The position numbers and the translations under genes are program-made. From Trichuris trichiura (lineage: Eukaryota > Nematoda > Enoplea > Trichinellida > Trichuridae): a stretch of 64,000 bases of DNA. The notes below the pieces were generated by a model that saw nothing but the letters and a program-made list of their open reading frames with translations, did no database searches and was not told the DNA's origin. Within the stretch, counting starts at the first letter, position 1; each line of letters starts with the position of its first letter. The DNA lies in contig JBAJFE010000026.1 in assembly GCA_037903355.1 (NCBI GenBank), forward strand, positions 4,092,001-4,156,000, written 5' to 3'. Below, piece after piece: positions 27-63,073 of the stretch.

Positions 27-3000
27 CACAAATAGAGATCATCCCATGTAAAGTATGCGGTGACAAGTCCTCTGGCGTACACTACGGTGTCATAACCTGT
101 GAAGGTTGCAAGGTAAGTTGGAGTGTACCTTATTCCAAAAGAATTCGACAATGTTCTTCCAGGGCTTTTTCCGCCGCAGCCAGTCCTCTGTTACAAATTA
201 CCAATGCCCAAGAAACAAGAACTGTGTAGTAGACAGAATAAACCGGAACCGTTGTCAATACTGCCGACTAAAAAAGTGCCTGGAGCTTGGGATGTCTCGA
301 GAAGGTTTGACGGCGGCAGTCAATTTTCAGCCTTTTGTTTTCAGTTGCTGAAATAGTTCATTGCAGCAGTGAAATTTGGCCGTATGTCAAAGAAGCAGCG
401 GGAAAAAGTAGAAGATGAAGTCCGGATGCACAAGCAGCTCCAAGAGCAGTTGCCCGTGACACAGGTAGTGCCAGGTGTTATGCCGGTCAATGGCTCTCCA
501 AACGTGTATGGTCAGTACAGTTGCAGTTCCGTGCAGTATTCGCCGAGCTCACTGTGCGTCATTTAGCTATTTCATTTGAGGAAACAGTTGACAAATATTT
601 TGTGTATGCAGGTACTCATCCTATCAGGCTAATGGGACAGCTTATTTTGGCAACGGCTACAATGCGTACCAGTCCATTCCGTCAGTTAGCAACTACCAAG
701 CCGCATACGTAGTACAAGCACCGCCATACACAAGCACGCCTTTGGTCTCCTATGCAGGCAGCAGCACGCCCACGTGGACAGTTGAGTCACCATTGACACC
801 AGGGGTCCGCATAAAAGCGGAACCATCGGAGGAACCAGCGCAGACCTTTGGTAACACGCATTACCTTGACAGTCTTCCGACACTGATGGTTTTAGACAAC
901 TCTAGCACCGTAAAGACAGTACTAGCAGCGCATACACATACATGTGTCTATACGGCTGATCAGCGCCAGCAGATCAAGCAGACTCCCATCGATCAGACAC
1001 ATTCGATTTTCCTGAAGTACAAGAACATGGTATATTTACGATCTTGGATATTGTTTCTTAATGGGTCCAAACGTTTTCTTGTTAAGTTCCAGTACGACCT
1101 TTTTATTGCTATGTTTTGGTTTCTGAAATCAGCCAAACGAACGCCATACCAAAGGGAAGATGAGCACTTATTAGAGAAAGAGTCAGAACAATGAATATTT
1201 TCAGAGCTTTTGGAACCACCGTGTCCGTAGTCATTGGAACTCACATTTGATAACCCTATCGTTGAAGACAGCGTAGGGTCATCTCAAAAGCTCTGAAAAT
1301 ATTACTCTGACATTTTCTCTAATAATTTGCTCACTCACCTTTTGGTAAGCTGTTTGGCCAACTTCAGAAACCAAAAAAAGCAATAAAAAAGTCGTACTGA
1401 AGTTCAGCCTGAGAAAGTATGCTTGCTTGATTTTACTTTAATTTATATGAGTTTACGAGTGGTATTCTGTTATTGTCAGGGCTACCGAAGAATTGTAGGA
1501 AAACAACATTTATAAGTGCACGATTTTATTCCCGAAATAGATTCAAAAACGCTCGTTCACAAAATTTCAGAAGAAAGTCGTACCTTATTTTAAATTAAGA
1601 ATGTACCTTTAAAAGACTGCTTTGCGTTATTTTCTTACAGCACGAGATTCCACTTCGTCAAGAAAGGTCTAATTTTTAGGTACAATGTACGCTGTTTCCG
1701 AAATTGAATATACAAACAGATGATAAAATTACTAATTCTAGCTAGTGACATGCACTTCGAATCTTGAACTTAGCTTTTTTCAGGAGATTAGCCGTTCTGT
1801 CTTCGCTATTTTACTGCACTTTTAGGTAGCATTGCTAGGGAAGGTGCGCCGCGTTCCTTATTAAAACAGTCACATATTTCAGGTTTATTGCAATTAAGTA
1901 ATAAGTTGCATTAAAACCCAGGTTTATTGATATGAGAATGAGTCACACATCACCCTGTTCATACGTTCTTTTGTGGTCCATCAACAAGAAATAAAGGTTA
2001 TTGTTGAAATTTTCATAAACTCATTAGAGACAGTGAGTTTTGGAGATCACGTCCGTTTCCTGAAAGGTATTAAAGTAAATTTGTGAAGGAACTGCGTGTT
2101 TAGATAGGTTAGTCAACATTTCTTCCAAAATGATAAGTTTTCATAACACCATGACAGTTAGCCCTTGAAAAGTCAAATTTCTTCCAACAATCGTGCTAAT
2201 CATATGTCTCAATAACTTTTACCGGTGATTCTCAAGCGGATAATATTTTCTTCTGGCCTTGGGGAAAATGGGGGAACAGCATTAGACTTCCTTGCCGTTG
2301 AGCTCGGCAAAGGTACAGGAAGAAAAAGACTCACAGAATCCCTTCTCTGGTCATGTTTCCTCCCAAAATGTCAGCCGATTTTTGCAGTTGTGAAAGCTGC
2401 TCCACGCGCTACCTGTCGCTTTCCATCAGCGATTCCCAAAGGGAGCTTTTCTAGATTGAGGACGTGGATATTATTGAATACCAGAGAGGCCAGGAGGAAA
2501 CATAAGTGGAGATAATGGCATGAAAACGGATAAGGAGGGAAGGTATGAGAAACTGTTGAGATTACTTAACTTTTCATTCCTCTATTTTCTTGCCACCTGT
2601 CATTGTCACTAAAAAATGGCAAAAAAAGAAATGTGGGACGCGAGTGGTCGCGATTGTCCTTCCCCGGTTTTTACAGCTTTTTTCCAGCCATTTGCATCTT
2701 TACTCATTGGGCAAAACTAATCAACCCGGAGGCGGTAGTCAGCCTGAGCTTGAGAAATATTGATCTGTTCTGTTCGGCCAGTAGTTTCTTACTTTTTCTA
2801 TTTTTTTTTTCAGGGTTAGTGGAACCTTGTGTTTGTATCCACATCAAAGCGTATAAACATAGCGGAGTTTTTAGAGCGTGTTGACTTTTTGTTTAACAGC
2901 GCTTTCGATGCTGCCAGACAAAACCACTGAGAGCGGCATCATCAGTTAAGCAACAAACTGCTGAAGCGAAGGTTTAAGCCAGGTTAGTTCCTGATAAGGA

Positions 3001-6000
3001 GAGATAAGAACGGAAAGTAAACATTCTGAATCTCTTCTGAGTCTTTGAAATTGGTTGTCCATTCGGAATTTCCAGTCCGATTTCTTTTCCAGATGTGCTC
3101 GTCGTGTGAGTTGTAGCTCTTAGCTAGATGCGTTCACCATGTGTGGCTGGATTCGTACGTCTCTTTTTGTCTTCCTTCTCAATCGTGGAGATTAGAGTCC
3201 TCTTTGAGAACGCTGCAAGCAAGAACGTCCATCCGCAGTTGGAGAGTATTGACTAACGTTATTTCCGTTAGATGGCAAACTGATACGCCTTTTTTATGGC
3301 AGCGTGCAGCACTGTATGCAGCGTAAGACACTGTTCCAGACCTCTGAGACCTCTGCATCATTGTCACGGTCTACGGGACGCTTTTGGCTGATGTATAGGA
3401 TTTCTTTTGCCTTTCTAAGAAAAATTATTGTATTTAGAAAGGATACGCGGCACTCTGATATGTATGCCAGTACCGCAGAGGACTTCAGTGCTCTTGCCGC
3501 TACGACGGAGGGAGAGATCGAGTTTAACGTTCAGGCCTCGCTGTGGCGTGCAGGCTTTGGAATTTAATTTTTATCATTGTTATATCCGTTTAACCACTTA
3601 ACATGCTTACTGAATCTTTCAACTGATGTGCGGCTAGTCTCTCTGACATAGTATGCTGAGCAAGCACATTTGACCTCAGACTATACCTGGACATTGTTCA
3701 CAAGGTATATTCATTTTGTCATTGCTAAGAATGGTGCTTGTCGTCTTGTTATTTTTTTAAACCACACGGTGAAGTTTAAGGTTTTACTAAATCTGCGTAT
3801 TTTCTCGCGGAGGATTGCGTAGTAGGGGATAACCAATCTGCTATCCGTGGAATATCGCTATTGGTAGTATTCATTTGTTGCAACCGACGGTTTATAAAAG
3901 CGTTTATTGGCCCATCAAGGTTCCCGTTCAACGTCTTTTTAATGCGAGCTGACTCAGTATGAAGGGTCTCAGGGTTGCGTGCGTTTATTGGCCTACACCT
4001 TGCCCTTAATGGTACCAGCTGTTACCGAACAGGGATGATGTGAAGACAACCAGGGTAGTGGTTTGAGTGCTTAGGTTTTCTGTAGATCATCGTGAAACAG
4101 TCAAGTTATGTTCCTTTTTGCGTACGTGTTCTTGATTGTTACGGTTTCTTGGACTACGTAACGTCCACGTTGTCCCTTTTGACTGATGAAATTACTGCTA
4201 ATAATTGATGATTAGCCCGCTAAGTTTTCGAGCAATCAAAGTGTCCAAGAAAGAAAGTTTCCCATTCACCTTGGTCTCTACTGTGAAAACTATTTGGTTC
4301 TTCAAAATCTTGTTCAAGTTTAAGAAGCCGTCATCGCCTCATGTGACCCCCAAAACTGACATAAATGTGGCGTTTAAGGATTCATGAGGCTGTGTTTTTA
4401 TCTATTGAAGAAAATGTTTTCTGCTGTAGCGTTCTCACGAGAACCTCTGCGAGTACAGATGACAGCGGATTCCTGCGGTAGTATCGTTGCCTTATTATTG
4501 AAAATACCGCTCTCAGTGGCTTGATCAGCGTTGAAAACTGAGCTCGGTTAACTCTGAAAGCTCCTCTGGACTTCTATAGTGTCGGCATGTATATAAATAA
4601 ATAGTTTCATTGCCTGTCACGAAAAATAGAAGATGAAATATGAAATTTGAAAGGACTGTTAACAATCAACGATTCAAAGCCAGAAGTTAATGTTGGGCCT
4701 GTGCACTCAGTTTCTGCATTTCTGACGCATTCGTTTTAACAGCTGCTTCAACTGAATGTTAATTGTATTTACAGAAATATTCATCACGGGGAGGAACGCG
4801 TTTTTATCAGCATCCAAAACGAGTTAATGCCAGTCGCTTAAAAATCTTTAAGGCGAGCTTCGATAAAATAAGATAAAAATGTTTTGCAGTGCCTACTCAC
4901 CAGGTCCCCCTTCCGGCCTCTGATATGCATTGAGAGTTCAGAAAAGATCGTAGTCACTTGATGAAAGGACTGATGAGTATAGTGGATAAAAGCATGCGTT
5001 GATCTTCAGCTTCTCAGGAGACGTGAACGATGCGTGGAACCAAGCGCTGTCGTGAGAAAAGATAAATTTGTTTCTGCCGGCCAATGCCACCTGATTTTGT
5101 CGATTGTGTTTACGCCGCAGTATACCTCAGCCTTAATAGTTTCTCCACGTCTAAAAAAGTTGCAACTTATAACGCCTTTGACATATCTCCATAATAGCAC
5201 AGTCTTTTTCAGGGGAAGTCATGACCTAGGAAAGGATTCTAGTAGTACTTTGTTTATTTAACCAAATGACTCTGTTTCAATTACATCTTTTATTGAAGTA
5301 ACCATGAAACAAGGAACTTTCGGGCGTCACACGATTCGTCACCAGCGAAAGCTTTTGACATTCACCGAATTTAGTCTTACCTTTTGCAAACTGGTCAACA
5401 TTACTAGCTTTGGCAGGAACATTAGCTGTCAGCTCGATTGTAAGCCATCGAGTGTCGGTCCTGCCTCGTCAGTCTGGCGGGTGGATGGAGCGTCTGACCG
5501 AGCGAGCACTGTAGTGGCAAGGCAACGAGCGAGTGAACATGACAACAGACGTTTTTAAACATTCTTCCCTTTTGCTTGGGCTTCAAACCTATCATCCTTT
5601 GAATTCTTTGTTCTTCTATCGGCAGTTCTCCAAACGCACTTTCATTTCATAGTATTTCTGCTTTTCATACTGTGCTTTCTTATAAATCTCTTTTTTTGCA
5701 GCATAATATGCAGGAGTAGCTAAGGCTTTTGGAACGCGACTGTTACCGTTTTCATCAGCAGGGCATAGACGGTTGTGATCGCCTGACGGTCTGCCATCGC
5801 CTTTGCCCTAACGCTGAAGACGGAACCGGTCGTATTCTGAAAGCCTCGGCTATACTCCTCTGTGCTTTTCCGTGCAATAGGAATTAAAACCGTTTTTTTT
5901 CTTGTGGAAACTTGCCCATTATGAAGCTCTCGATCTTCACCTATGCAAGAGTAGAAAAGCTATAAAATCATGTGCAGCTATAAAAGCGTTGCAACGCAAG

Positions 6001-15758: not shown

Positions 15759-18700
15759 CTAATCAGTAAGTGGAACTTTTTCGTTTCGGTATGGGTCCTG
15801 GTCAGGTGAGTCGAACTCATAGTCCCTTTTGGTGGGTAGCATTGGTGGAGTAGGATAACGCTGCTTTTCTCGGTATTGTTGCCAAAGTTCATGCACAAGA
15901 TCAGTCGTGACAATGTCCCCTGCGTTAGTTGCTATGATTCTTAGCAGAAATACACCGTCTGGCCGGAGAACATGTCGCAAAAAACGATTGATTAGCCGTT
16001 GTTCAGGCAGACTGTCGCTGATGTTGTCAGAAACGCGAAGATAGCGGCTAATGAAGTGAAACTGAGACCTCTGACTGATCGTAACAGCAATCCAGTAGAA
16101 AAAGTTCAGTACTGTAATTATACTAACAACAAGAAACCACCACCAAAGAAATAAGTAAATCTTTTCGTTGAACATGTTGATCATTAAGACGCATTGGACA
16201 GTCCAGCGGTGCAAATTGCCTAATACACGAACGTCAAAGTCACACATAGTAACCCGAGGGAAATGACCAGATTCTTGCCATTCCCTCCCATAAGCCAGAT
16301 CTCGCAAAATTTCAAAGCCCCAAAACGTGTATTGCGGTCCGAGGAACTTGTTTAGTAACAGGAATTGTAAGAAGACGTTCAGAATATACAAAAACTTGAT
16401 GAACAAATAGAGACTAGTGACGTAAGCTCCGTAATGCTTTCCATAGACTAAGAAGCCGCATAATTTTCCTGTAGTTTTTAGTTCCCTCTGCAGTTCTAGA
16501 GATTGGCGAATATGAGTTGCGACGGTGTGAACATTTTTGCCTCGAGTGCTTGAGTCCATGTTGCCTGTGTCCATAGCCATGCTCGCAATCGTCTGAACGC
16601 TGATACCTTAAAGCAATTCTTATTAGCAAATCCATTATTCGAAACCGACATCTTCTCTGCACAAACAACGAATACGTCTCAGTGTGACTGTAGTTTCTTA
16701 CAGATGATCATTACATGATTTGTGACTCGTTTTTCTATGTGATTAAACGAAGCAGATGCTTCAGCAACGACTGAAGGAACAGTTATAAGAAAAAAAGGTC
16801 AATGGCTTAAGCTCTGAGACGTTATGCTATTTCCGCAGGGGCCTCGATTTAAGTTCAGTTCGATAGTGGCGCACATTCATTTCGAAATGTCCCGCTTAAC
16901 TCTGTCGACTAATCGAGGAATGGCCTAGGGGTGTTGCTCTGGTGCAGTGAACTGCAACCCAGCCAGTCAGTCACATGGTCACTATGGCAAATTATCGATC
17001 GCCTAAGATGGAAGACGCCCTCTTTGCTTCTTAGATATTGTACTTATCCGTTCCATGTTTGAGAAAAGCAGTTGCTTTATAATGGATCGACAATGTTTCA
17101 TTGCATTTATGAAACTCGTTTTCCCTTGCTAGTGACTGACAGCACTGAATGTATGTCGATAAAGAATGCTCAGCTAACGGATTACCGACGAACATCAGTA
17201 AGCACGAGTATGATGGTCATAAATATTTAAGCGTATTGTGATGTTTTTGCCTGGAATATGGCCACCCGTGGCAGCGTTCCCCGGTATGTCGCAGTACTGC
17301 CGTGATTGATGATCAGTGATGGCACGCCGTAAAGGGCCATTGAACACTGAAACTTTATTTGTCCTGCAGCTTCTTACCAGAGTGGATTAGATACCCTCCT
17401 CCTGTGTCCCCACAAAGGCAGTGCAGGAGCCGTTTGTTACGGAGGCGGGATTAGCTTGGGTTCACCCGGCCCCACGCTGTAACTCGTTTCGCTGCAGTGT
17501 CAACTAGGCTTGCGGTTGGCACCCCTGCCCTTGCTGCCCTCGTTAAAGGCGTTAACAACTTGCGTCTGCCTTAATATCAATTGCTGAAAATTGAAACAGG
17601 CAGTTTCTGAAAGCTAAGATATCCTTTTCTGATTGAAAACTAACAGGGATTAAACCATTGTTACTGTTATACAACAGCGACCCGTTATGAGAACAAACAT
17701 CATTAATAGTTCCCATATGTGGAGTTCTATGTTTTTAACCCAAAAACAGAATTGCTGTATTGTACGATACGCTTGCAGGACATTACTCCACTCAACTGTA
17801 ACCTCGTTCAAGAGTTTAATCTTGTTAAGACAAGCTGCGTGCGCCTCTGATGTTCAATCGGTTCTAATCCACAGCATGGATTCGTTTAATATTGTCATGC
17901 CCATTTCACTGTGACGGCCTCCTACCATGGCAGTCAGCCTTGTCTCTGCTGAAATCAGTTTAACTGTGTTAACACCGTGCGGTTCAACTTCATTTCAAGC
18001 ATGCGCCTAGGCCTAAACGTTTATCAACGACGCCATTGAACCAATTTATTACCAACGGAGACTGCGGGGTACTACGACTGAGAAACCGCCGCCATTGCGA
18101 TAAACGCATTGAATACACTTGTAAACTTACGATGGAAAGCTTGGAATGAAATGGCATCTGAAGTCGTGATCTCCTGTATGTATATACCACGTCACTGTTA
18201 AAGCGGTCAACTTCCCACTCAAGGAGGTTGTCCTTGCACTTATTAAAGTGCGGACAAACCAACTGGTCAAAATTCGGTCAACCCGTGTTTCATCTCCCGT
18301 GACAACACGGTCAAGAAACCCGGTTTCATTACTTCAATCTTCGTTAAAAGCTCCCGAGAAAGGTTAGCACGTCGAAGTAGCTGTTCTTTGAGCAACCCTT
18401 TTGGGACCCATCGATATGAAAGCTTTCTCAAACCAAAGGTTTTATGCAGTATTCCAAATGCTGAATGGAGGGAAATCCCAGCCATTCTAGCAACCCTCCT
18501 AATAGTAATTCTGCGGTCTCCTTCCGCTAGGTTCCTGATAAAGGCCACGGTTCTTTCGCTCGTTGCGGCTGCAGGTCTTCCCGCTTTCCAATCGTCTTCG
18601 ATGGCCTCTCTACCCTCCTAGAAACGTTTTATCTACTCATAAACAACCGATTTAGATGGTGCACCACTTCCGTAAACCCTCTGCAAAGATTGAACAATCC

Positions 18701-21676: not shown

Positions 21677-21947
21677 CTTGCTTGGATTTTCTTGCTGTTC
21701 TGAAAATAAAGGTCACAGTTCATTTTAAACCAAGCATGCTCTGTTTACAGACTTGCAGGCTCAAGTGCAATAGTGTCTACTATCTGGCAGCTTCGCTAGT
21801 TCGGATGTGTTATGCGCAGACAACTAAGTTGGGAGGGGAATAACGAAATGCGGAACAATTTGGTGCACCGAAATCCTTTGCTTCACAACAGCTCCAATCA
21901 CACTTTAATTCTCATGGACTTTCAGATACGCGACTGCTTCTTTAGAA

Positions 21948-22150
21948 ATAAAATTCAGCAGCTCAGTGTTTTGGCTATTTCAATTAGTAATGTCGTCTAC
22001 GTTCACATTCACTCTGAAGACCGAACTAGTTAGCCGTGAAGTTTCTTTACCCTGGAAGTTCCACTTCCTTTTATGCGTACTTTCGGTTCTGTCTGTCTTT
22101 CTCTTAATTTAACTTTTCCTTGAGTTCTACTGTGTAATCGCATCCCTACT
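21948..22150 (+). repeat. Solo copy of inverted-repeat family B
   Basis: Contains tcgtctacgttcac, gactagttag-like and gcgtac-like blocks in the same order as the arm at 25817-26030. No coding frame. It lies just upstream (on the minus strand) of innexin 1 exon 1, within 0.5 kb of its start, so it may sit in that gene's promoter region. Confidence 0.55.
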
Positions 22151-25816: not shown

Positions 25817-26452
25817 TACGAACAAAATTCGTCCACTGCACACTGCGGTGACATTTGTTTCAAATAATGATATCGTCTACGTTCACGTTCACTTTCACTT
25901 TGACGACTAGTTAGCTCTGAATTGCTGCTTCCTCTTCGTCCCTTGCGTACCTTGGTTGTGTCTATCATTTTCACAAATGCAACTGTTTCTAAAGATCTCA
26001 TTATGTAATTGCAGGCGTACATCATACTACAGATGCAGCGCCGTAAACTACTCATAGTCAGCATATGCTGCCGTCATGAGCTATCAATCCTGGTGTCAAA
26101 TGACAAAGTGCAGAGAGCGGTTGTATAAGCCCACCATCTGCCAGTATCAAATTCTATCAGTTCAAATTGATAAACTTCTGACCTTCATTTTCTTATAAAA
26201 AGGAACAGTGATAATGTACTACTTCTTGTTTCACCTGTTCCTCAACAACATTTCACAAAAGGCTTGCGACAACACAATCAGAGCCTTACAAACAGTTGCA
26301 TTTGTGAGAATGATAGATAGTACCCAAAAATACGCAAGAAACGGATAAAAAACAGCAACTCAAAGCTAACCGGCCGTTAAAGTGACAGTGAACGTAGACG
26401 GCACTGTTATTGGAAACAAAAGTCATTGCAGCGTGCAGCAGTTGAATTCTGT
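25817..26452. repeat. Inverted-repeat element, family B
   Basis: The arm at 25817-26010 is the reverse complement, with mismatches, of about 26285-26452; the shared core includes tcgtctacgttcac and atcatt(t/c)tcacaaatgcaac. The spacer is about 270 bp and non-coding. A third, single arm lies at 21948-22150. This arrangement fits a MITE or foldback element. The following 26453-27329 holds only short unassigned frames. Confidence 0.65.
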
Positions 26453-27329
26453 TTGTAATATACAACCTGACATAGTGGTGCTTTATTTGCCCCAAACACA
26501 AATGTATTTACTCAACAAATGGACCAGGGCACAATAGCTGCCTTCGAAGCATACCATTTGCCGCCAGCTTTTGGCCAGGCTCTAAAAGAGACTGAGTCTG
26601 GCCGAATACTCTGTGAGTTTTGGAAAGGTTTTAATATTCCAAGTGCTATATGAAATGTCGGTGCTGCATGGAGAAAAGTTACACAGAGACGCATACAGAA
26701 GACCTGGAGAACATAAGTGAACCCACTCGATGATTTGAACAAAAATTCTGCAACTGACGAAAAAGTGAGCGACAAAACACTGAAACTTGGAAACGGAAAT
26801 GAAATTTAGCCTTCCATTAAAATGATACTCAATCAGGTCATCAACGTGGAAGCCGAACAGCTTACGAATTTAGAACTGATCAGGTTGATAAAAAAAAGAA
26901 AAGAAGTTCCAGCGGAAGTAACAAACAAGTTCATTGCGAGAAACTGACTGAGCCGTTTGCTATTATAAGCAGCGGCGTATAGATGTTAGAAGAAATGATC
27001 GACAACTGCAAGCGATTTCTGAAAGCTGATCGACAAATTCAAGATGCTCTCGCCTGATACGGAGAAATATACAAAGGATGAGTGTAAAAATAAAAATTGG
27101 TGCCTTTCTAGAGCAGCATACGCCTGGTACACCAACAAAATGCAGAAGTGCCTTCGAGCTATCAATGAGTCGAGTAAAGAAAAAAGTTCACGGGGTCGCC
27201 ACAACAGCTTTACTATCTTCTTGCAATATTAATTCAGCGCATCAAACGTTGTTGCGGATCAGTGAACTCTTGTAGCTGTATGCACATCAATGGTTGCCAT
27301 ATATAGGGTTTTATCCTATTAATTCCAAA

Positions 27330-28050: not shown

Positions 28051-29221
28051 GACAACATGCATTCTAGGTCAGGCTAAAGACCGAAACATAAAAAGTACAA
28101 CCGAAATAGTGAATAGTAGATGCAAGCCCCGTTAAGAAGTGAGAACGAATTAAAAAACGATCCCTGGAACACGAAAACACGTGATGACTGTTCCTTGGCT
28201 GAAGGATAAACAGGTCGCACAGAGAGAGCAAGTGATGCTACAATGCAGAAGCAAGAGGTTACTGTTGTTTTCAATTAGAGGGTACAACGGTGGTGAAGAA
28301 ATGCCTTGTATGCCTCATAGTCAGGATGCCCTGTTATCATCATCATCATCACAAGCTGTTCATGCTACCGTGACATTAGAAAATTAAGGTAATAACTGCG
28401 ATAGCCTACAATCTCCTGGCACCTAATTCTACTAATTTGTATTAATAAACGTCATTTTCGAAATGACTGTGAAGAACGTTCTTGTTCAGGGAAAGTGAGT
28501 TAATGTACTTCCATTTTTGGTCTGACTTTTCGTTTAATGCCTTTCATTCTTTCCCAATTAGTCTTGTAAAGCTGTATCAGAAATTCGAAAGATAGGGTAA
28601 ACGACCTGCTTCACTTGTGCTGGAAGTACCAATGCAGCGCGTAACGCAGAAGGAAACGTGCACATTTCCGCCGGAATGACGGTAGAGTTGCCATAAAGGA
28701 AAACACATATTATTCAGATCCTGTGAAGGATCCATAGCTATGGATGCCTAACGGTTGAATATAAATAGTTCAGATATAGCATAATGTTTTTTCAACGCAG
28801 TTTATTCATGAGTCAGCTGTTGGTTCTGTGTAAAGGAATCTGTCGTTTGGGAAGTGTTGACGACGGAATAAGAGCAGTTCCAAAACGTACGGTATACACT
28901 GTTTTTAGCTTACCCATTTGCTGGAAAAAATTCTAAAGTTTAATCAGAGACCACAAAACAGTTCACATCCGTGAACTGAAGATCAGTTATGAAAACTCTG
29001 AAGCCCGTTGCAAGACATCCCGTTATCCGAAAAGATTCTAATTTTTGGAAATTTGAGTGGATGAAATATAGCTAACTCAGATTGAATATATTTTTGCAAA
29101 GATTACAAGGTTTAGCTGATCCGTTATTCTGGATGGTCATAGTCAGAACTAGGGAGATCCTTCCAGCCAATTTGATATTGGCAAGATTTTGAAGACGGGG
29201 TGCTTCTTAACGGGGCAATGG

Positions 29222-29596
29222 ATTTTCATCACTACTTTATACGGTATGTTTTCTTGCCCGTTGATGGGTTCTGAAATTAAACCGAAGCAAATGCCCTGCC
29301 AACGGATGGATGAGCAATTATTAAGGAAAAATACAGAACAAATATTTAAACAGTTCAGAGCTTTCGGGACTAACCTTGTTCCGTCGTCAGCGATAATGGT
29401 GATGGTAATGGACCATTACCACCATCGCTGACGACGGGACAAGGTTAGTCCCGAAAGCTCCGAACTGTTTAAGTACTTGTTCTGTATTTTTCCTTAATAA
29501 TTGCTCATCCATCCGTTGGCAGGGCATTTGCTTCGGTTTAATTTCAGAACCCATCAACAGGCAAGAAAACATACCGTATAAAGTAGTGATGAAAAT
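29222..29596. repeat. Long near-perfect palindrome (foldback), arms about 185 bp
   Basis: The arms 29222-29411 and 29413-29596 are reverse complements at roughly 95% or better, with the centre at 29412 and no spacer. Near the centre on each arm, facing outward, is CTGACGACGGGAC, 7-nt loop, GTCCCGAAAGCT (right arm 29428-29459). The outer part includes the aataattgctcatcc block shared with 1083-1408 and with 30790-30840. Flanks on both sides carry ttggcaagatt (left about 29178, right about 29595), perhaps traces of the target. It is much younger than the other foldbacks. Confidence 0.9.
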
Positions 29597-30317
29597 TGGC
29601 AAGATTGCTTTGGAAACAGACGTAGTAAGATGCCTCCCCGCTATTCATTTTCACTTTACAAAAATTGATCCGTGGATTCGACGTCCTTGCAATAAGTACT
29701 AAACGCGCTGAGCGCACCTGAAATCCGTGTTCTCGAGAAGCAGAGAAAACACGCCACGGTGGGAACAAAGCCAGCATTTTTATGGAATACGAACAACAGA
29801 GAACCAAATATGGACACCGGAGGAGTTCTTAGTCTACTAGGGCCATAAACTACAAGGACAGTTTGCGGTAATGCTGAAAAAACTAGAAGTTGAGCAAAAA
29901 GCTCCAATTCAACTCCTTAAAGCTAGAACAGCAACGCGTCTAAGTGGCATGAGATGCAGGAACAGCAGACGCGAAAGAACCAGAGATCAAAACAAAGGTA
30001 TGTCTAGGATTTTTATACCTATCGTCAACAAAAAGGTCCAGAAACAAAGTAAACTTCAAGAACGAACAAGATGCAGCCAGTGTATTCATCTACTACAAGG
30101 AATTGCATGAACAGAAAAAGCATGCACGATAACAAACAGCAGACAAATTTTGAACTCCACATGATCAAGTAGATTACGCAGGGAATCACTGGGATGGGCG
30201 CTACCCATTAACTCATCAAAGATTGAATGGATAACTATCTCAGTTGTTTATCTTGGTAAGAGAAGAAAAGTTCCTTAGCTGATTACTCTTTTATCTGTGC
30301 CCATTTGTTTGCAGAAC

Positions 30318-30390
30318 TAATCCTGTTTCGTCATCAGCGTAAAATATTCTGCACTGATGACAGAATAGTGCCAGCTCCGAAAGAACCAGG
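30318..30390. repeat. Head-to-head pair of CTGATGA-type motifs
   Basis: The right motif reads CTGATGACAG at 30354-30363 and ends in CCGAAAG at 30377-30383. An inverted partner (tcatcag, 30331-30337) lies 16 nt upstream. The pairing resembles the centres of the larger foldbacks, but the arms are decayed. Confidence 0.45.
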
Positions 30391-30880: not shown

Positions 30881-31164
30881 GGGTAAAAGTCGTGATTGGA
30901 TAGTGCCGTAAAAGAATGCAGGGATCTTTTCCATTGACCGCCCGGAAGTTCCAGTTTCCTGACAAAGTGACAGATTACTCATCAGTTGAAATCATTTATC
31001 TTACTACGGTGTTAAGTAAACTCCTTGACTTGGTCATTAATCTTCTGGTGGGATAGTGCCGAGCTCGGCGGACGACCAACGTCGTGCTGGCGCTATTAGT
31101 TAATGTCAGAATATAGCACCGAAAATGGAGCTCCTTCTAACCGGTGTGTGAAAGAACATAATGG

Positions 31165-33375
31165 TTATATGAAGGTGCTACCCGCTAAGCTTTTATTTGG
31201 CGAAGCTTTCGAGAAACGCCGGTTCCCGTCTTCAATGCGTGAAAGAATGGCAGAGTGCATGCTGGCACATCACTAGTCAGACTAATTACTTTACAAGGCG
31301 GAATTCTTGGGTGGTTTTAAACGGGTTACAACATTTAAGAAAGGGCAATGGGTAGGGGAAAGGGGAGCATAACAGAAATCAGGAGAGCAATTTTAAAAAA
31401 AGGAAAAAAAGAAGCAGAAAGGAAGAAAACAATAAAGGGATTGCGGGAACGGGGGATTTCCAAAGAAAACGTCGAGCACCTTTATTGTCGCCGTGCAGGA
31501 GATACATATAAGAGGCAGCAGTTTGTAACCCTGATGACGCAGTCCAGGAGTCGCTTACTGCGATGCTACTGTCCCTGTTAATGTATGAACTGTATTATTC
31601 AAAGTGCTTCTTTTATCTTTCTGATCATTAAGTGTCCCTCTTTTCAGAGCACCTTCGCATGCAGTTGACCCATGCTCTGCGCTGCATGCTGTGGCATTGC
31701 TGACGTCTGAGTAGCCTGCTCCATCGCGTCTCGCAGGTCAAGTGATGGCGGCCGTCCACGTGATGTCTTGGAGTATTCTCCGTTCAGTCGGTTAACTGCA
31801 TTCCTATACTGCGTTGAGGGCCATTTGTGCTCCTGGCACCCATGCGCTAACGTATTGCACATTTCCCCAATATACGAGGCTGAAAATTCACATTTTATTT
31901 CGTAAACCACCCCAGGACATTGGTCCAGTGGTGCCTTTTCTTTGTCATTCCATAGGATGGAACGGAGGTTTGGGTTTCCGTAGAACCGTACCTCAACACC
32001 CAGTCTATTCCCAAGCCTTTTAATTTTTTCTCCCAGGCCTGCGTGATACGGGAGGATGAGTTATACCCCTGAAGCAGGTTTTTTCACCCTTGTTCTGCCC
32101 TCCAGTTTTCGCTGAATTACTAACTCGACAAGATGGGCAGGGTACCCATTTTCTGAAAATGTTTTCCGCAAATAATCAAGTTCTCGCTCCAAATATTCTT
32201 GATCGCAAATGGTCAATGCGCGATCCGACATACCATCCAATACTCCAGTCATAATGTGTCGCAGATGATGTGACGTGAACTCCACATATTTGTCAGAATG
32301 CGTTGGTTTTCGGTAAATTGTGGTTTCTGTACCCTCCAGTGAACGAATGATGATGTCCAGAAAAAAATTTTTTCCTTCCACCTCTTCTTCAATCGTAAAT
32401 GTTATCACGTTGGGAAATTCACAGTTCAGAGTTTCTAGAAAACTGTCTTCGTTCCCCATCTTAAGTACTGCAAAGACGTCGTCCACGTGTCGTTTAAAGT
32501 ACGTGGGCGCAATCTCAGTGTTGGTTTGAGAAAACACTCGGCGTTCTAAGTACTCCATGAACACCTCCGCTAGTACCAGATATAGTGGCCCCTCATCGGT
32601 GTCCCATTTTCTTGTTTATAAAATGATCTTTGAAAGTGAAAGATGTGTCGCCTCCAGGACGCAAAAGGAGCAAAGTTTTACACTGTGAAACGGGTTGAGT
32701 TTTGCACGTTGAGGTAGGGTTACCTCTGAACTTAGTAATTCTAGCAAAACCTGTAGGGCTTCCGGTATGGACAAGCTTGTGAATAAGTCTGTGACGTCAT
32801 AGCTGACCATGTTTGTAGAATCGAGGTTTATGCTTTCAACCTCCCCACAGAAAATCCTGCAGTTTTTAACCGTAGACTGCTGTCGTCCAACTAATAGCTG
32901 AATTAGTCGTTTCAAGTACAAGTCAAGTTCAAAAGAGATGCTGTTAATACATAAAACTACCGGTCGGAAAGAGATATCCACCTTGTGAATTTTGGACAAT
33001 CCATACATTTCTGGGTATTTGTAACGTAAGGAGTGCCCCCGTTTCTTGCTTAATCTGGTTAGTGTTTCATCTCCAGTTTCTCAGGCGAAATTCTGAAGCA
33101 GGCATTTTAAGGTTTTGTGTAAATTCTTGGTGGGGTCTCCTTGAGTAAGCTTATAAACCGTGTTGTTCAGAAGGAAGGACATCCTGTCTACGTAAAAGAA
33201 CTTCTAATGTTGTAACCCGTTTGAAACCACCCAAGAATTTCACCCTTTAAAGTAATTGGTCTGACTAGTGATGTGCCAGCATATGCTCTGCCGTTCTTTC
33301 TAGCGCTGAAGACAGGAAGCGGCGTTTTCTAAAAGCTTCATCAAATAAGCGTTTAACAGGTAGCACCACCGTATC
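31165..33375 (-). mobile_element. Penelope-like retroelement B, with inverted terminal repeats
   Basis: Minus-strand coding text from about 33195 to 31620 reads through several stops and frameshifts. It gives YKLTQGDPTKNLHK, YGLSKIHK, SFRPVVL, MVSYDVTDLFTS, then KRHVDDVFAVLK (catalytic YVDD-type box with H for Y), RKPTHSDKYVEF, LILPYHAGLGEKIKRLGNRL and CPGVVYEIKCEFSASYIGE. That order, a Penelope-type reverse transcriptase followed by a GIY-YIG endonuclease, is diagnostic. The start of the reverse transcriptase is missing. About 165-bp inverted repeats flank it (31168-31340 and 33205-33368), sharing gctggcacatcactagtcag and ttcttgggtggtt. Each carries a degenerate GAAGAC...AAAGCT motif. Stops make it inactive as it stands. 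A frame at 31348-31581 (+) inside it has no support. Confidence 0.9.
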
Positions 33376-33981
33376 ATCATTATGTCATGATATAACAATT
33401 GATGTCTTATCAATCAACTGGAAAACCGGAAATTCCAGGCCCCTAAACGAGTGCCGCATTTTAATTCAAAAAGAAGTGCGTACTCTAAAGAGCCATTTTG
33501 GACCACTGCAGTGTTTTACTTTCGTGGGATGTTATTGTCTTTCAGTTGCATTACAGAATGTTTTGCATCAGAATGCAATTACGGGACAACATTTTGATAA
33601 AGCGTTCACTACAAGAAAAGACTGCGCGCGTAAAGTTTCCTTTGGTATTCCTGCACAATTCAATGAAAGATTGAATTAACATAAATTGACTTACCACAAT
33701 CGCACTTCCGTGTGTTAGGATACCAAACCTATCCTCGCAGAAGGAAGCAGAAGTGAGTGAACGAAACTTGTCCTCCGCTTCAAGGGCTTACTCTAGGAAA
33801 GTACTTTTAAGCTGAATGGAAAAATCAAACGCAAAGATGTAAACCTTCGCTAAGAAGGTTCGTCGTAGACGGAGAAAAAATTAAAATCGCCGAATGGCTA
33901 AAATTTTCATTTGCAGCAATGACAGAAAAGAAATAACAAGTGACATTCATTCAGAGATCGGCAAACGAAGCGACACAACGA
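33376..33981. other. Intergenic gap downstream of innexin 2
   Basis: About 600 bp between the retroelement and the innexin 2 stop. Nothing recognised; the innexin 2 3' untranslated region should lie here. Confidence 0.5.
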
Positions 33982-36588: not shown

Positions 36589-39500
36589 TCTGCTTACTGT
36601 GCAACTTTAGTCGAACATTCAAGGACAGAACTTCCAGAACTAGACGCAGTTTTCGCCGTAATCAGTCAACAAACAGCGCCAAACTTCCGCTGGTAAAGTG
36701 CATCATGAAGTTACTGCAGTAGAGATCACAACGCTCTCTGGTATCATTGCGCGTCTAAAAGAAACACTGTCATCGCTACGCTGTCGCAACCAACAGAGGT
36801 TTTGCCGCGTAAATGCTGCATAGTGAGCAGAGCGGTCATTCTGAAAAGGCACTACTTGCTTTTCACTACTTACTGCTTTTCCTGAGCGAAACTACCGTTT
36901 TACTTGTCATAGTGGATCGTCGTGTCGGGTGTTGCCAGATACGAAGCAGCCACTAAAGCGTTTGGAACTTTTCTACTGTCGTCTGCTGCCAATGAACCAA
37001 TGCAGACGCACTAAACTATCGCAGTGAGACCCGATGGCCTAAATTTACAAGCCAGAAACCATTTTTGCAACCGGTTTAGCATAAAGTGGATGACCATCAG
37101 GTCATTACGTTGAAGTTCCCATGACCCGTTTCGCAAAATAGCATTTGTTTTTCCACTGTACAGATATACCCACTAGTGGTTTCCAAGAAGTTGCTGTATT
37201 AAGAGTGAATTAAGCTGAAGCTATGTGTGTTTCGGCGGTATCCTGGACATTGTTTCCAGCCTCGCAACAACCAAGGAGCTCAGTTTCGGCTCGCAAAACA
37301 CGGCAAAGGCTTGAACAAACATTGTAGCGCAGCCAAACGGGCCTCTCTTCGAATAACAACATTGTATGGGCTTGGCAAAACATTCCGCGCAGAGAACTAC
37401 TTTCATGGCTTGCTATTTAACGTGAAGTGCGTCGTGCCCAAACACAAAAGGATCTAATTTGGTGAAACCTGTAGCGGTTCAGCTTAATTTAGACCCTTTG
37501 TTACGTCGAATGCACGTTGGTGTTAAATCGCTTAATATTGTGAACAAAAGCAAATGGGCTGTTCTAACTCACCTTTAAGTTAAACTGTCAACTTTACCCA
37601 TCTTAAAGTTCCTCAGGAAAATGTACAGGCATAAAAAGTGCCTTAGCGCTTAGTAGTTAAGGCCTCAAGGCGTAGGTGGTGAATGTCCATAACATAACAG
37701 AAACAACTGCGCATCATACATAAATTTTCTTCTTGATGACTTGTTTTATCAGGAGCAGTGAGGTCGTCAACTAGGCTCATAGCTTTTTATGTTACACAGC
37801 GGCATTCCGTCTAGCAAAAGTTCATGAGTGCTCAGGCTGCACACTTCCGTTCACGGGTTACTTCGACTTATTGACCATGCTGCTGAACAAATGTTTTTGT
37901 CGAAGTAGTCACTAGATGCTGCATACTTGAAACTGCAGGCAGTCTATTTTCGCGCAAATATTGTCGACCGCTGGTTATTACACAGTTCAGGGCCATATGG
38001 AAATAAGAAGGACACCGAAGTTCCATTGCTTGCAAATCCCAGGCAACAAAATGCGAACTTTTAAGTGTCGCCTATTAGTTCAGAGCAATGCACTCACAGT
38101 ATAACTGAAAAAAATAACGCGGAAAGCAAAAGCGTTTCACCTACGCAGCATTGCAATAAACAGCCTAGATTCTTTACCATACCCTTTGCAGCTTAAACAG
38201 CACGAAGGTAAAGACTGTAGATAGCGTCAAGTGTGGCAACTGCTGCTATGAGTAACGACAGATGAAGAAAACTACACATAAACTGGCAGAATAACTTATC
38301 TTTTTAGTTCTGTTTCGTCCGTACTTTGTTTATACTAGCAGATAACGTAAAATCCGAACTGGCGTATTCTAGATAAGAACCAGATGTTTCAGGCATGCTC
38401 AAGTAGCGATAATGTAAACCTTGTTCAGTTCTTTTGAACCATATGATGCAATCTTAGCCTTCTAACTGCAGTGCTTTCTCAAACGAAAAGAAAAACCCCT
38501 GCACATTTAAAGCTTTGATACTGTTTATTTTCGAAGTGGGATAAGTGCAACATACCAAAGAAGTAGCTGATATGATTAACAGAAAAGAAAATCTAACGCT
38601 ATTTTTTGTATTGTCTCATATGAATCAGGAATGCAACTTGTAGCTTATTCATTCGGAAAGTGTAGCGCTGACAACGAAATGATAGTGACATGCCAACAGC
38701 TGCTGGCATTTGGAAAGCTTCAGTAGACAGGTGCATTCATGTAACCACTGGCTGCAGTATTTTTCAGAAGTGTACGCGAGACGATGTTTTCACGAAAATT
38801 GAAACGGCTAGAAAACGAAGTGCCACTATGGTTACAAAGACCTTCTTATTTTTAATTTATCTGAACTGTCTTAACTTCTAGCGGATTAGTGACTCAGATA
38901 AGAAGGTACAACACATCTGATCAAATATCATATAGTACTATATTAACGTTATTGTTAGTACGAAAATGGCGTAGTAGATCGTATTGGAGTGTCTGTTAGT
39001 GAAGTGCTAATGCTAGACCAATTTGTGGTGTAGTGTCCGTTTATTAGTGTGAAACTCTCGAAGCTTTCGGAAATCAACAGTTCCTGTCACCAACAATTTC
39101 CATAAGTACTAGTGCTTATCCATTATAGCAAGTTTCGTAAGAGCAACGTTGCCTTTAGCATGCTAACGGTATTTTCAAGCTAGAGAAACAAAACACAAAC
39201 TTTACGTAATCATTTGAAGCAGCTTTGTAGTGCTGCAGTAGAAGGTTAGTAGTGAATATAGTTCATTACTCAAACCCAATTCAGGATTGCTAAAACACAG
39301 TACGACAGAAATCAAATTTTGCTGATACCACGATCACGTTGAAAACCTTAAAACCGGCTACAATTTTAAGCCTTCATTTGAGGCTGTCTCTGTAGTCCGG
39401 TAAAACGAACTGTCACTGATTCTTGCAAAGGTTTTACAAAAATGCTTTTGGCATTCTTCTTATTCTACATTATGTTCAAACTAAGTTTCAGTTTGCATAG

Positions 39501-56219: not shown

Positions 56220-59200
56220 ATGCTTCGAAATCGAAAAGTGCTGAACGAGATACACATAGCCGTAGTTGGTGCTGATGGTTCTGGAAAATCTGGTTAGGTA
56301 AGCACCGTTTCAGTCCAAATTTAAATGCATATTTTCAGCACTGACCGTGAAATTTATGACAAAAAGATATATTGGAGAATATCACGTGAATCTCGGTATG
56401 TTTTCTGTTCACTTAGTTCCTTTGAATTCATGTTTTCGCGCTTTAATTCTTGAAGTGGCCCATTTTTTCAAAGGAACTTTAGTAGCTTTTTACCTCACCT
56501 TCTTTAGAGGACACTTACTGCAAACAGATGACAGTCTGCAATAATGAATGCATGCTTTGGATTATGGACACTGTTGAACAGGTGAACTGTGGTGCAAACG
56601 TCCATCGTACGGCTAAATGAGGTTATGAATTCTAGGACGGTAAAAGTTCCAGCCGCTACATTAGTTGGGCAGATATCTTTTTGCTTCTGTACAGCGTAAC
56701 TGACAAAGATTCTTTCGAGTACGCAGAAAATCTTTTGAAGGAAATTCATGGTCATGATCACTCCATATGTGTTAGAAATCACATGGTCTGCTTAATTGGA
56801 AATAAAAGCGATTTGGAACGCTACAGGTTGGCATTATCTGTAATGTTGATAAAACCGTACTTTAGTTGCTATTTTCTTATTTTTTGACAAGCTGGCTTGC
56901 GCTTTTTGCGAATCCGTTCTTTCATTTACCTGCAAAATATTAGTTTGCTGCGTAAATTCATCTATTTTCTGGCGACCTAAGGCACGCTTAGAATCAATTC
57001 GGAACAGCCTTGCTTATGCCAAATAGCCTTTCAATCGATTATACTCGGTGGTCTTTTGCCAGCGTTCTGACTGCAAATGGATGCCCAAGTGAGGGAACCT
57101 ACCTGCCCTAATCGTAGCACATTTTTCACACTACTAAATTGTTTGAAGCGCAGACCACGTAGTTGTTTTTCCCTTGACTTGAACAAGGGGTTATGAAAAA
57201 ATGATACCTAATGAACACGCTGTGTGTAATAACATTTTCTCCCATTTCGTTTTGAACTCATTAGGGTTTTTTTGTCGTCGCGTCGATGTAAAGCGCTACT
57301 ACGGAATAACACGCATTTTCTGTAGTGATCATCTGATTCCGTTGCAGCAGCTAGTCTGACGTGCACTGCGCTTTCCCATCCGGTCGCACATAGAAGAGCA
57401 ACTTTTTTCCATTTGTCTTTGCTGAATAGCAGGTGTTTTAGCAGCCTTTAGTAACATTCTTTCTCTCTTTTGACAACTATGGACCTATGTTTAAACTAAG
57501 CTTTTTATCCATAACTTTCAAGGCTGCTCTTATCCCAGCCACAGCGGAGACATTTAAAGCTTTCAGGTGCGAGATAGATAATGGGCATTGAAAATGTGAA
57601 GTTTAGTTTGAAGATTGTGAATGTACATTTCGTTTTCAAATTTGCCTCTGTGCCCAACAACATGTGACTTAATCGCAAGTCATTGTTTATTCTTGTCGAA
57701 TTCCCTCTTACTGCTACTTCTAGGTCCCGTTTGATAGTGTTATGCTTCATGAAAGATGCCAGTTTGAACTTACATGAATAGAGTGTGATTCTCAGCATGA
57801 TAACTTAGAACTTAAGGCAGCGGAGCCTCCACAGGCATGTTTTGCAATCACAAAAACTTTTGTCGCTTTATCCATCACCGTAGTACGCTCAAGTAATTGG
57901 TGCGGTGTAACGGAGCGGTAGCAGCCCTCCGCCAGACATTCCTGAATATCGTTTAATTTTTTATGTCATCGTTTCGATTAAGACGAAGTAAGGATGTTTG
58001 AAAAGCTTCGAGTGCATTTTTTGCGATTGCAAATAAAAGTTTTTCTGTTAACAGGCCAAAACTGTACGAAGTGGAATTAGCTAGTGTTCTTGAAAGCATT
58101 GTAATAGTGTTTTCGGTTTGTAATAGGTTTGTCATTCCCGAAAATTGACGCATTCGAACTCAAGCGGCAGCTTGACACTTGTTTTGAAGGAGTGTACGAA
58201 AACACTATTTTGAATAAGACTCTTTGAGATAGACTGGCAATATTCAAGCACTCCATCTGTCTCCGCAGTGTTATTTGGACTGACTGTGACTTTGAGTGGG
58301 TTTTTAAGTTGTAAAGTTTGAAATAGAAATCTATTTTTAAAAGCTGTAAATGTGGATTGACTTGTAAATGTAACTTCTTGGTACGGGACCGTATAGTTTC
58401 ATGTCGAGTTTCTTTTACGGAAATTTTGTCCCGTTGATAATATTTTTATTATTCCGGAGCTTTCGGGTCAAACGAGACCCGTCTTCAGCGGTGTTAAAAT
58501 AAAGTTAGGTTACTTCATTGCTTTATTTTAACACCGCTGAAGACGGGTCTCGTTTGACCTGAAAGCTCCGGAATAATAAAAATATTATCAACGGGACAAA
58601 CTTTCCGTAAAAGAAATTCGAAATGTGGATTGACAGTTCATGCAAGCAGAAGGGGAAGTAAAACATAATTTAAGAAATTAAGGACGGGAAATGGATGGAA
58701 AGCTGATATGTAATGTTGCTCTGGTTAATCAGAGCAGGTGCTGTGAATTAGCCTGTTGACCCGTTTTGTGCGTTATATAAGACCATGACGACATTCACAC
58801 CTTTCTTTGCTGACGAAAGAACCAGAAGTGTTCCAAAAGTTTTGCGCCCCTTCTTTTGTGCGTACGAATAGGACAATAAGCCGTTTGTTATACTGTAACA
58901 AGGGCTCGTTATGAAGCTTTTCATTTCCATTGTGTCGTCTTTACTCAATTTGGGTTTTTTTCTTTCTTTTTTTAAAACTGTTGTTTGTTTTAAACTTCTA
59001 TAAACGCTGTCCTTTAAAGTATTCGTGTAACCGGCTCACTACGAAGTTGCCTTGTGCCATAAGTTTTGCAGTAAAAGCGGAAGTAGGGGCGTCCCGTAGG
59101 GTCAGCTATTATAAGTAAACCTCTGGACGTCGCTTTTCCTTATGAAGCATAATGGCTTTCTTTGTGAGTAACACGTAAAGACGCAAAACATATTTGGAGA

Positions 59201-61358: not shown

Positions 61359-63073
61359 TAGCAATCACCAGCATTTCGCTGACAAAGCTTGGCAGGCTTG
61401 CGTTCTCGATAATGTGTTGGTTTGATTTCCGTTTATACACACTAAACACAACTTTACTCTTATGTTGCGCATTGAAATAGGCGACTGTTCCACCAGTTAC
61501 GCAATTAATTGAGAAAAATGAACATCAGGTTTGCTAGTTCTTTTTGTAAGGAGTCGTTTGGTTTCTCTTGCAAATGAATTCATTTTTATTCTTATCACAT
61601 GGAACACCAGTTAGAAACATGATAAAGGTCTATTATATCTGTGTCCTTTGAACTTGCCTATGTTCTAATTTCTTTGAAAAACGTTGAAAATACCATATAT
61701 AAAGACGTGTAGCCCAAAGCTAACTGGATGACGAAAGTTATCTGACCACTGATGATTGAACCACGTTTCATCGAGGCTGATTGGTCAATTTAGGTAAATG
61801 TGATCGGTTGAAAATGTTTTTTTACCACTGACGTCCGGAATCAACTGTTCTATCAGTAGACCGTAGGACCATAAAAGATTTAGTGATTCTTTTCTCGTTT
61901 AGTTATTGCCTAGGTCCATGTTTGACAAAGCTGATCTGTTTCTTTCTCTGAAGTATGGGCGCAGTGTCAGTGTGGCTGTTCAAGTAATACGTTTTTGAAT
62001 CCGCTGGTCAATGCTGATTGATAAACGTTATGCCGTTTTGAACAAAGGAGGGAGGCCGTATCAGTCTTGTGCGCCTTAAGATCTATCGCTGACAACGGGA
62101 ACAAAGCTATTCTGAAAGCTACAATACGGCCTCCTTGCGCATAGGAACAGAAAACAAACTGAAAACAAACAGGAGCCATCTTTATCCCACTATTACACCT
62201 AACCGTTATGAAACTTCGTATTTTCAAAATTTTACTGGGTTTTCCATCTGACGGGGACTGCAGGCCGGTTCACGTAAAACCTCATTACCGCAACAGTGCT
62301 AACTGCTGGAGTACTGCAGAAAGTTGCCGCGTGAAAATTGTTGACGGTCAGGCTGAACTGCCGATTGCTCTACCTGGCTGAACCTGATACATAAGCTTAC
62401 TGCATCTGATAATCTTTTTAATATGGGTAGGTAATATGCTGAACAGAGAATATTCCTCCTTGTTTGAGTACACAATACTTTAATGCTCGTTTGCGCACAT
62501 GGAATATATAGAACATGGACAAAAAGCAGAGTGCTAACTAAATTCAAGCGTTTCTGGTTAGCTTGACAAAGACTGTTCAACACGTAAAAGTTACACGACG
62601 CTGTGAGCTGATAGTATAACAAAAAGCGGCATGCGGTCACTAGCGGTCAAGGAAGATGCGTTCGGCAATCATTTACAAAATGATACTTAAGCGAGCGGAG
62701 AACAGGAGCAGCAATAGTGCTTGTAAGCTCACTCACAGACTCTAAGGTTTCCCTGAGTAAACCATTTCGAGATCGTTAATGCGAGCGATCCGTTATAACG
62801 ACTTCCTTTTCACCACTAAATACTTCAACCGTCTCGGATGTGTTCGTCGCTACCTGATAGATCAGCATATTTTGTGTCTTTCAATATGCTAGGGGCTGAA
62901 CATTAAAAGCCCTATGCAACATTAGTTCTTACAGCATGTCAGGATAAACGAGCGTTTCATACACATCACAGTTGTCCTGCAGTAGATACCTTCATCGTTT
63001 CAGCAAACGCCGCGGGTTGCTGTTCGATTGATCGTTACCTTAATTTAGATATCAGGCTTTGTTGACATGCGCC
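61359..63073. other. Intergenic DNA, convergent 3' ends
   Basis: Lies between the stop of the GTPase gene and the stop of the minus-strand gene at 63074. A small inverted pair (aggccgtat at 62053-62061 and atacggcct at 62123-62131) encloses a decayed CTGACAACGGG...TGAAAGCT motif at 62089-62120, similar to the foldback centres. Nothing else is identified. Confidence 0.45.

Follow-up and report, generated by a model that had tools for sequence, protein, structure and literature searches.

A predicted minimal hammerhead ribozyme in the leader of Trichuris trichiura Penelope-like elements and its probable spread by insertion primed from both target strands

The whipworm Trichuris trichiura holds thousands of copies of a short motif that, judged by sequence, look like minimal self-cleaving RNAs of the hammerhead type carried by Penelope-like elements (PLEs). 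We consider it probable that the motif is a hammerhead of the PLE leader that cleaves as a dimer and is spread by PLE insertion primed on both target strands. The foldbacks and the PLEs with inverted ends in which it occurs are one thing, i.e., single insertions with two head-to-head, independently truncated arms. A sequence-only reading of the window, the whole stretch of 64,000 nucleotides analysed here, had placed the motif at foldback centres and in the inverted ends of a PLE; the positions of the window copies bear this out, and the tie to PLEs proved to be direct, with the motif adjoining RT/GIY-YIG open reading frames (ORFs) and preceding their apparent start codon.

Structure and copy number of the motif

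The predicted monomer would comprise a 3-bp helix I, CUGANGA, an extra nucleotide (mostly C), a 5-bp helix II, GAAA, GCU and H17, followed by the cut and the second strand of helix I. Written out, the motif has the layout NCG-CUGANGA-C-GGGNN-loop-NNCCC-GAAA-GCU-H, predicted cut, CGN, in which helix I is formed by the strands that precede CUGANGA and follow H17, and the CUGANGA and GAAA boxes flank helix II. A strict pattern gave 1424 + 1444 matches (2868) across the 72.7-Mb, 62-contig genome and the same pattern read backwards gave 0 + 0; the copy number is far above chance. Head-to-head pairs numbered 95 with a core gap of 2-32 and 202 with a gap of 33-63 (controls 0), and inward pairs with a gap of 2-32, sought by a similar pattern, numbered 2 (3 in its reversed control). 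The claim that the motifs always face outward therefore holds as a strong rule but not as an absolute one, with locus L001 carrying two converging copies and L017 two in tandem.

A covariance model was trained on 47 sequences, 46 of them from outside the window, and E below 0.01 was taken as significant. Nine motif copies in the window fall below this value, five of which were already in the sequence-only reading. They are given here with the other features (TSD, target-site duplication).

1198..1299, 1198-1237 on the - strand and 1259-1299 on the + strand: decayed outward pair, marginal (E 0.24, 0.043); no TSD found
5811..5852, + strand: degenerate hammerhead motif (E 4.1e-6)
17581..17622, + strand: degenerate hammerhead motif (E 0.0042)
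29178..29188, no strand: left TSD TTGGCAAGATT, identical to 29596-29606
29189..29595, no strand: foldback PLE insertion L031, two head-to-head truncated copies; 34-nt tail on the left (29189-29222), right end tail-less
29352..29393, - strand: minimal hammerhead motif, left arm (E 2.3e-10)
29425..29466, + strand: minimal hammerhead motif, right arm (E 9.8e-14, training-set member); predicted cut after C29460
29596..29606, no strand: right TSD TTGGCAAGATT, identical to 29178..29188
30308..30383, 30308-30340 on the - strand and 30351-30383 on the + strand: possible decayed outward pair, not significant (E 0.099, 0.67); no TSD found
31118..33385 (approximate limits), - strand: degraded PLE insertion L061 with inverted ends; left-end tail reading MFFHTPVRRSSIF, none at the right end; no TSD found by script
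31197..31238, - strand: hammerhead motif in the PLE end downstream of the ORF, with T in place of C3 (E 4.7e-9)
31644..33080, - strand: PLE ORF broken into three open stretches, in which YFKRHVDDVF and YIGE motifs can be seen by eye
33303..33344, + strand: hammerhead motif in the inverted PLE end upstream of the ORF (E 1.4e-5)
39055..39096, - strand: marginal degenerate copy (E 0.042)
58348..58361, no strand: left TSD AAATGTGGATTGAC, matches 58621..58634
58362..58620, no strand: foldback PLE insertion, second family; tail end on the left, reading MKLYGPVPRSYIYK
58451..58491, - strand: minimal hammerhead motif (E 8e-15)
58534..58574, + strand: minimal hammerhead motif (E 4.9e-14); predicted cut after C58568
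58621..58634, no strand: right TSD AAATGTGGATTGAC, matches 58348..58361
62086..62127, + strand: degenerate hammerhead motif (E 1.6e-4)

The copies originally read at 29428 (+) and 58537 (+) were recovered, each with a mirror copy on the opposite strand (at 29390 and 58488, respectively), as were those in the inverted ends of the 31.2-33.4 kb PLE and the degenerate copy at 62089. The degenerate copies at 39055 and 1263 are weak only, and the copy at 30354, which has no GCT after its GAAA, is unsupported on its own. The copies at 5811-5852 and 17581-17622 are absent from the sequence-only reading.

That reading had held that the lack of any Rfam covariance hit would count against a hammerhead, and here the outcome was negative: a search of the window at the gathering score and at E up to 10 gave zero hammerhead matches, and RF00008 had no match in the whole genome, nor in any of 14 control genomes. 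The Rfam models presumably miss the motif because they expect a stem III, which is absent in cis here; a match to a curated model is of practical use and does not define a hammerhead. Compensatory changes, its second line of evidence, are abundant in helix II and also in helix I, which it had missed. The foldbacks at 29222-29596 and 58400-58625 drew sub-threshold Rfam matches to the miRNA families mir-3913, MIR2670 and mir-3747, and mir-785 was matched on palindromes too; with scores under their cut-offs and matches sitting on palindromes, these families were rejected. Such foldback hairpins could be mis-annotated as miRNA genes.

Pairing was assessed in two sets. A scan for CTGANGA...GAAAG[CT]T without any pairing filter, covering the window and 90 partly overlapping loci (355 kb), yielded 102 instances with distinct flanks, many of them related copies. 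Helix I pair 3 was TA in 35, CG in 33 and GC in 28, giving Watson-Crick pairs in 97/102 where 33.8 were expected, and helix II pair 4 was TA in 42, AT in 39, GC in 7 and CG in 6, giving 94/102 paired where 36.5 were expected. Pairing ends sharply, the positions I-4 and II-6 lying under expectation in the same instances. The second set comprised 47 non-redundant sequences, for which at least four of the five helix II pairs were required and helix I was unfiltered. Both sides had changed in 6/7 pairs; 93.6% of the cells were paired (77.9% when shuffled), 47 cells were double-changed (13.6 when shuffled), and the covariation score was 0.460, compared with 0.177 for shuffled and 0.026-0.163 for slid versions, with 0/500 shuffles reaching it.

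Because the search patterns prescribed CTGANGA and GAAA, the constancy of these boxes is no evidence; the intervening helix was left free. Position N7 is free (A 38, C 36, T 28 of the 102 instances), H17 is C in 67, T in 25, A in 8 and G in 2, and the extra nucleotide after CUGANGA is C in 95. Genome-wide, H17 is G in 51 of the 2868 strict matches. GCT directly follows GAAA in 66/71 distinct copies and in 2363/2525 genome matches to GAAANNTHCG. The free N7, the rarity of G at H17 and the GCT after GAAA, none of which was required by the search, fit what a hammerhead demands. Twelve of the 19 places listed with G at H17 are one repeated variant, CTGAAGACGGGAACCGTGTCCTCCTGAAAGCTG (e.g., G000:C2:39094), which also has a weakened helix II and is thus presumably an amplified, dead ribozyme. 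Folding of 29400-29470 gave a z of -1.84, only mildly better than shuffled sequence (10/200 shuffles fold equally well). For the motif on its own, the predicted structure has a 6-bp helix in which the extra C is paired with G12 of GAAA, a pairing that would disturb the core. According to a 2023 survey, known hammerhead alignments contain no more than 1-2 inserted nucleotides after A9 (PMC10085705), and one extra nucleotide therefore appears to lie within the tolerated range. Altogether, the covarying helices I and II, the H17 rule and the kept AGCU support the interpretation of the motif as a predicted hammerhead ribozyme.

PLE reading frames, tails and insertion ends

RT copies number at least 150 (150 were scored among 1287 candidates). 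The strict-core motif is present at 22/30 loci fetched by a PLE RT fragment, and 19 of these 22 have it downstream of the RT and in sense orientation. Where copies flank the RT on both sides (L068, L069, L080, L083 and L088), the upstream copy is antisense in 5/5; L071 and L073 share one motif copy between two RT pieces, and the sense copy upstream of the RT in L089 comes from another family. The L080 ORF matches Pfam RVT_1 (7.6e-13) and GIY-YIG (1.1e-4), thus combining RT and a C-terminal GIY-YIG in a single ORF as in EN+ PLEs, and the L082 and L086 ORFs match RVT_1 only. By eye, all three contain YVDDIF, and L080 and L082 also a GETGNT..RF.EH stretch. EN+ PLEs are characterized by an RT related to TERT; here a search of solved chains gave a best E of 0.0038, to another RT, and 0.012 to TERT. 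For the long PLE ORF of L082, 22/23 best relatives are from T. muris and T. suis, with 44-68% identity, the other being the protein P0009. The pieces of the broken window ORF (31644..33080) had no match in a Pfam search; relatives of this ORF carry RVT_1 and GIY-YIG.

Insertions of head-to-head arms mostly have TSDs, which vary in length. Their long end runs about 35-50 nt past the short end, and the short end stops near the start codon; in family I1 (30 loci), for example, the outer end after the motif is ..GTGATGAAAA or, 34-35 nt further, ..GTGTTCAAG. In one family after another, the tail at the long end can be translated from an ATG over about 13-14 codons (MKIHCPVKKHPVFK, MKTYGPVRRNHVFK, MLLHTPVRRNYVFK, MKTFVPVPRNPVFK), typically MK...PV....VFK, from which the copies at L001, L003 and L028 depart. 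The N-terminus of the related PLE protein P0009, MRSYPVFRNPLFN, resembles this reading, suggesting that the short end lies near the start codon, that the ORF begins with the tail and that the hammerhead sits in the leader. We infer that the tail ATG is the true start of the whole PLE ORF. What is new here would then be the position of the motif, in the 5' leader of the PLE and before an ATG that opens a recurring peptide, with the predicted cut roughly 45-130 nt before this ATG. A location in the PLE leader/pLTR characterizes minimal PLE hammerheads, and a 30-40 bp tail with a TSD characterizes EN+ PLEs; the whipworm elements show both. A further hammerhead family with a GGCTCAAG..TGAGCC helix II (L036:2499-3017, L089:3272, L034:2110) has a longer outer part and no MK..PV reading.

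Each insertion carries one tail. Among 33 insertions with both ends, 32 have one tail end and one tail-less end, L036b being unreadable; none of the 32 readable insertions has two tails or zero tails, and a TSD was found by script in 29 of them. Family I1 contributes 15 independent insertions, each with one long and one short end and a TSD by script (15/15); one of them, L043, lies in a microsatellite. Left out of I1 were L033, which has two tail ends and is a duplication, as the same flank occurs in inverted order, L052 (second end partial, no TSD), L048 and L056 (flanks as in L036), L055 (the L045 insertion) and ten loci with one end only. The other families contribute 18 insertions (18 pairs, plus L088, minus L070, which has the same TSD as L068), with a TSD by script in 14/18, one mismatch being allowed in L001 and L069. 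The ends of L043b and L077, in microsatellites, were read by eye and have no scripted TSD, and the window PLE, L061, has a single tail end and no TSD.

A family-blind test of 20/22 outward pairs (L036b and L070 left out) found 15 with a TSD of 11 or more exact bases; the end offset was 35-50 nt in 13 of these and 25-27 in the two in which the duplication runs into the element. Mismatched pairings reached 11 bases in 9/380 cases, 8 of them via nested I1 copies in the flanks of L034 and L043. L088 has a 14-base TSD and an end offset of 35. Since the pair-listing script allows one core mismatch, decayed pairs among the examined loci may be missed. A rule that the ORF arm carries the tail was rejected: as assigned by eye, the tail is on the ORF arm in L061, L068, L077 and L083, and on the opposite arm in L069, L080 and L088.

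The near-perfect inverted arms (105-185 nt), short size and high copy number of the foldbacks would also suit MITE-like DNA transposons, bounded by terminal inverted repeats and tied to PLEs by nothing more than shared sequence. Such elements should have identical repeats and a TSD of fixed length, whereas the ends here are unequal because of the tail and the TSD length is variable; in addition, each arm is truncated on its own within the palindrome, RT/GIY-YIG ORFs are bounded by ends of this kind, and no transposase-bearing relative with such ends and a fixed TSD length was seen among the loci examined. We therefore regard a MITE-like origin as highly improbable.

Arm lengths and priming

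Inner arm limits in I1 were set by BLAST with a reference arm of 1400 nt. The tail-less arm is the one that extends further inward in 7/15 insertions (L031, by 4 nt, L032, L037, L039, L040, L042 and L045), the tail arm in 5/15 (L038, L041, L043, L046 and L060), and the reach is equal in 3/15 (L034, L036 and L059); the inner limits of the two arms are independent. The arms of one insertion differ by 0-7 positions and are nearly always of the same subfamily, a shared common variant differing in 1/16 tabulated pairs (L034; in this comparison L048 repeats the L036 insertion). N7 differs between the arms in 2/90 typed pairs, which may be point mutations. Mixed subfamilies were considered as proof of two RNAs and rejected, given the single variant in L034. 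The two templates would thus be either a single RNA copied twice or two RNAs from one locus.

The likeness of the arms, together with centres that are often nearly palindromic (unpaired centre of 0-5 nt in 32/90 typed pairs), recalls the self-priming proposed for Adineta vaga Penelope, in which a cDNA or antisense transcript folds back close to its end and serves as its own template (PMC3846280). A copied arm would, however, share the outer end of its template, yet the tail is at one end only, and a tail-less arm that is longer than its supposed template, as is clearly seen in L032, L037, L039, L040, L042 and L045, cannot be a copy of it. Self-priming is thus an improbable origin of the whipworm arms, whose lengths speak against what was suggested for A. 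vaga (PMC3846280). The two systems are otherwise alike in their inverted pLTRs, head-to-head palindromes and pLTRs with first codons; the A. vaga pLTR plus tail extends to 22 codons of the ORF, the tail is optionally at one pLTR and the TSDs are 8-10 bp, similar to the whipworm insertions, which differ in having many more copies and one tail per readable insertion (PMC3846280). In the part of the open-licence literature surveyed, neither the one-tail regularity nor the argument against self-priming was found stated.

One tail per insertion is consistent with reverse transcription primed on both strands of the target, at two internal sites, and speaks against the published self-priming. In the explanation that we favour, EN+ (RT + GIY-YIG) PLEs would spread the motif by insertion: reverse transcription would be primed from both strands of a staggered target cut, begin within the RNA, at either of two positions around the start of the ORF, run back through the hammerhead and stop at variable points, and the two cDNAs would then be joined head to head, producing the foldbacks as well as the ORF copies with inverted ends. 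An ORF element with inverted ends would simply be an insertion with one long arm. Two joined cDNAs from the two sides of the target would account for the TSD, the outward ends and the variable inner ends; priming from both target strands would in this way follow from the insertion products. The 2868 strict matches and 297 close head-to-head pairs in a compact genome amount to a natural record of integration products, against which two-strand priming, the significance of the tail and the site of ribozyme cleavage can be tested directly.

A close comparison is with PAc (Poseidon, Anolis carolinensis), whose enzyme cuts and extends both target strands in vitro, with reverse transcription starting within the template early in the ORF and the tail representing the stretch between two start sites (PMC11167929). 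The whipworm elements appear similar in the hammerhead at the leader-ORF junction, the internal start early in the ORF and the tail between start sites; they differ in that PAc forms tandem arrays and is cut 26 bp inside the ORF, whereas in whipworm head-to-head pairs are common and the predicted cut precedes the ATG (PMC11167929). Two features of PAc would, by analogy, count against our explanation: in vitro the hammerhead is not needed for insertion and uncut RNA is inserted, and no difference in start site was seen between top and bottom strand (PMC11167929).

Stem III, cleavage and related hammerheads

Stem III is absent in cis, and the sole evident candidate is AGCU against the AGCU of a second copy. 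With no stem in cis and AGCU being self-complementary, the A15.1-U16.1 pair, and with it stem III, would be possible only between copies. In GAAA-GCU-H-CGN, the AGCU could thus pair with a second copy, the two forming stem III and cleaving as a dimer, with predicted cleavage after H17; both cleavage and dimer formation we infer. At L028:2521-2562, GAAACGT stands in place of GAAAGCT, a double change that keeps a self-complementary stem (ACGU) and, as one case, merely hints at stem conservation.

None of 30 arm ends of family I1 lies within 2 nt of the predicted cut, so the genome holds no record of cleavage, and truncation at the cut site as such a record was rejected (0/30). Most arms contain a complete hammerhead, which implies that their templates were uncut there, in agreement with the insertion of uncut RNA by PAc (PMC11167929). 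The roles left for the ribozyme are likely to be the processing of tandem transcripts or the holding together of two templates. A cluster of 16/30 arm ends (family I1) lies 10-22 nt upstream of the motif and might mark the RNA 5' end; a subfamily difference in the reference could equally cause it.

PAc, which inserts in vitro without cleavage (PMC11167929), also lends some weight to the idea that the motif is a hairpin conserved for protein binding or priming, hammerhead-shaped and no longer or never catalytic. The absence of a cleavage footprint among the 30 arm ends and the ability of the extra C to pair with G12 point the same way. Against such a hairpin stand an H17 that is not G in 98.2% of the 2868 matches and the kept AGCU, both of which are expected of a catalytic hammerhead, and we know of no reason for either in protein binding. 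On balance we consider a non-catalytic hairpin unlikely. A more speculative extension, to which we give little credence, is obligate paired integration, in which two RNAs dimerized by AGCU would be copied from both strands of one target cut, one starting at the tail site and the other at the start-codon site, and the cDNAs joined head to head; if true, the conserved function of the ribozyme would lie in pairing templates no less than in cutting.

Minimal type I hammerheads of PLEs were reportedly described by Cervera & de la Pena in 2014 and by Lunse, Weinberg & Breaker in 2017. They lack helix III and may cleave as dimers (PMC7761336, PMC7229834, PMC6155905). The whipworm motif resembles them in being PLE-borne, without its own stem III and putatively dimeric (PMC7761336, PMC6155905, PMC7229834, PMC10085705), and differs, by comparison with the descriptions in reviews, in its extra nucleotide, 3-bp helix I and putative AGCU stem III. 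Metazoan retrozymes likewise have a type I hammerhead and are small non-autonomous repeats that maybe use PLE enzymes (PMC7229834). They form direct tandem repeats of 150-450 bp with mostly canonical stems (PMC7229834), unlike the close pairs in whipworm, which are mainly inverted, PLE-derived arms placed head to head, with one tandem pair in L017.

Elsewhere in the window, inverted repeats of 46-83 nt with 74-79% complementarity lie at 21978-22023 and 25816-26458, within which the covariance model gave only a chance-level match at 22011-22037. Three copies of a unit with TTAGGC-like repeats, which we take to be the nematode telomere unit, occur at 23142-23660, far inside the contig. Innexin genes are present on the minus strand: 15759-16607 has a Pfam innexin domain, 21122-21712 and 36115-36606 are, by eye, perhaps N-terminal innexin exons, and the ORF at 33982-34932, aligned over 94% of its length, is 82% identical to an innexin of Trichuris muris, the next best being 42%.
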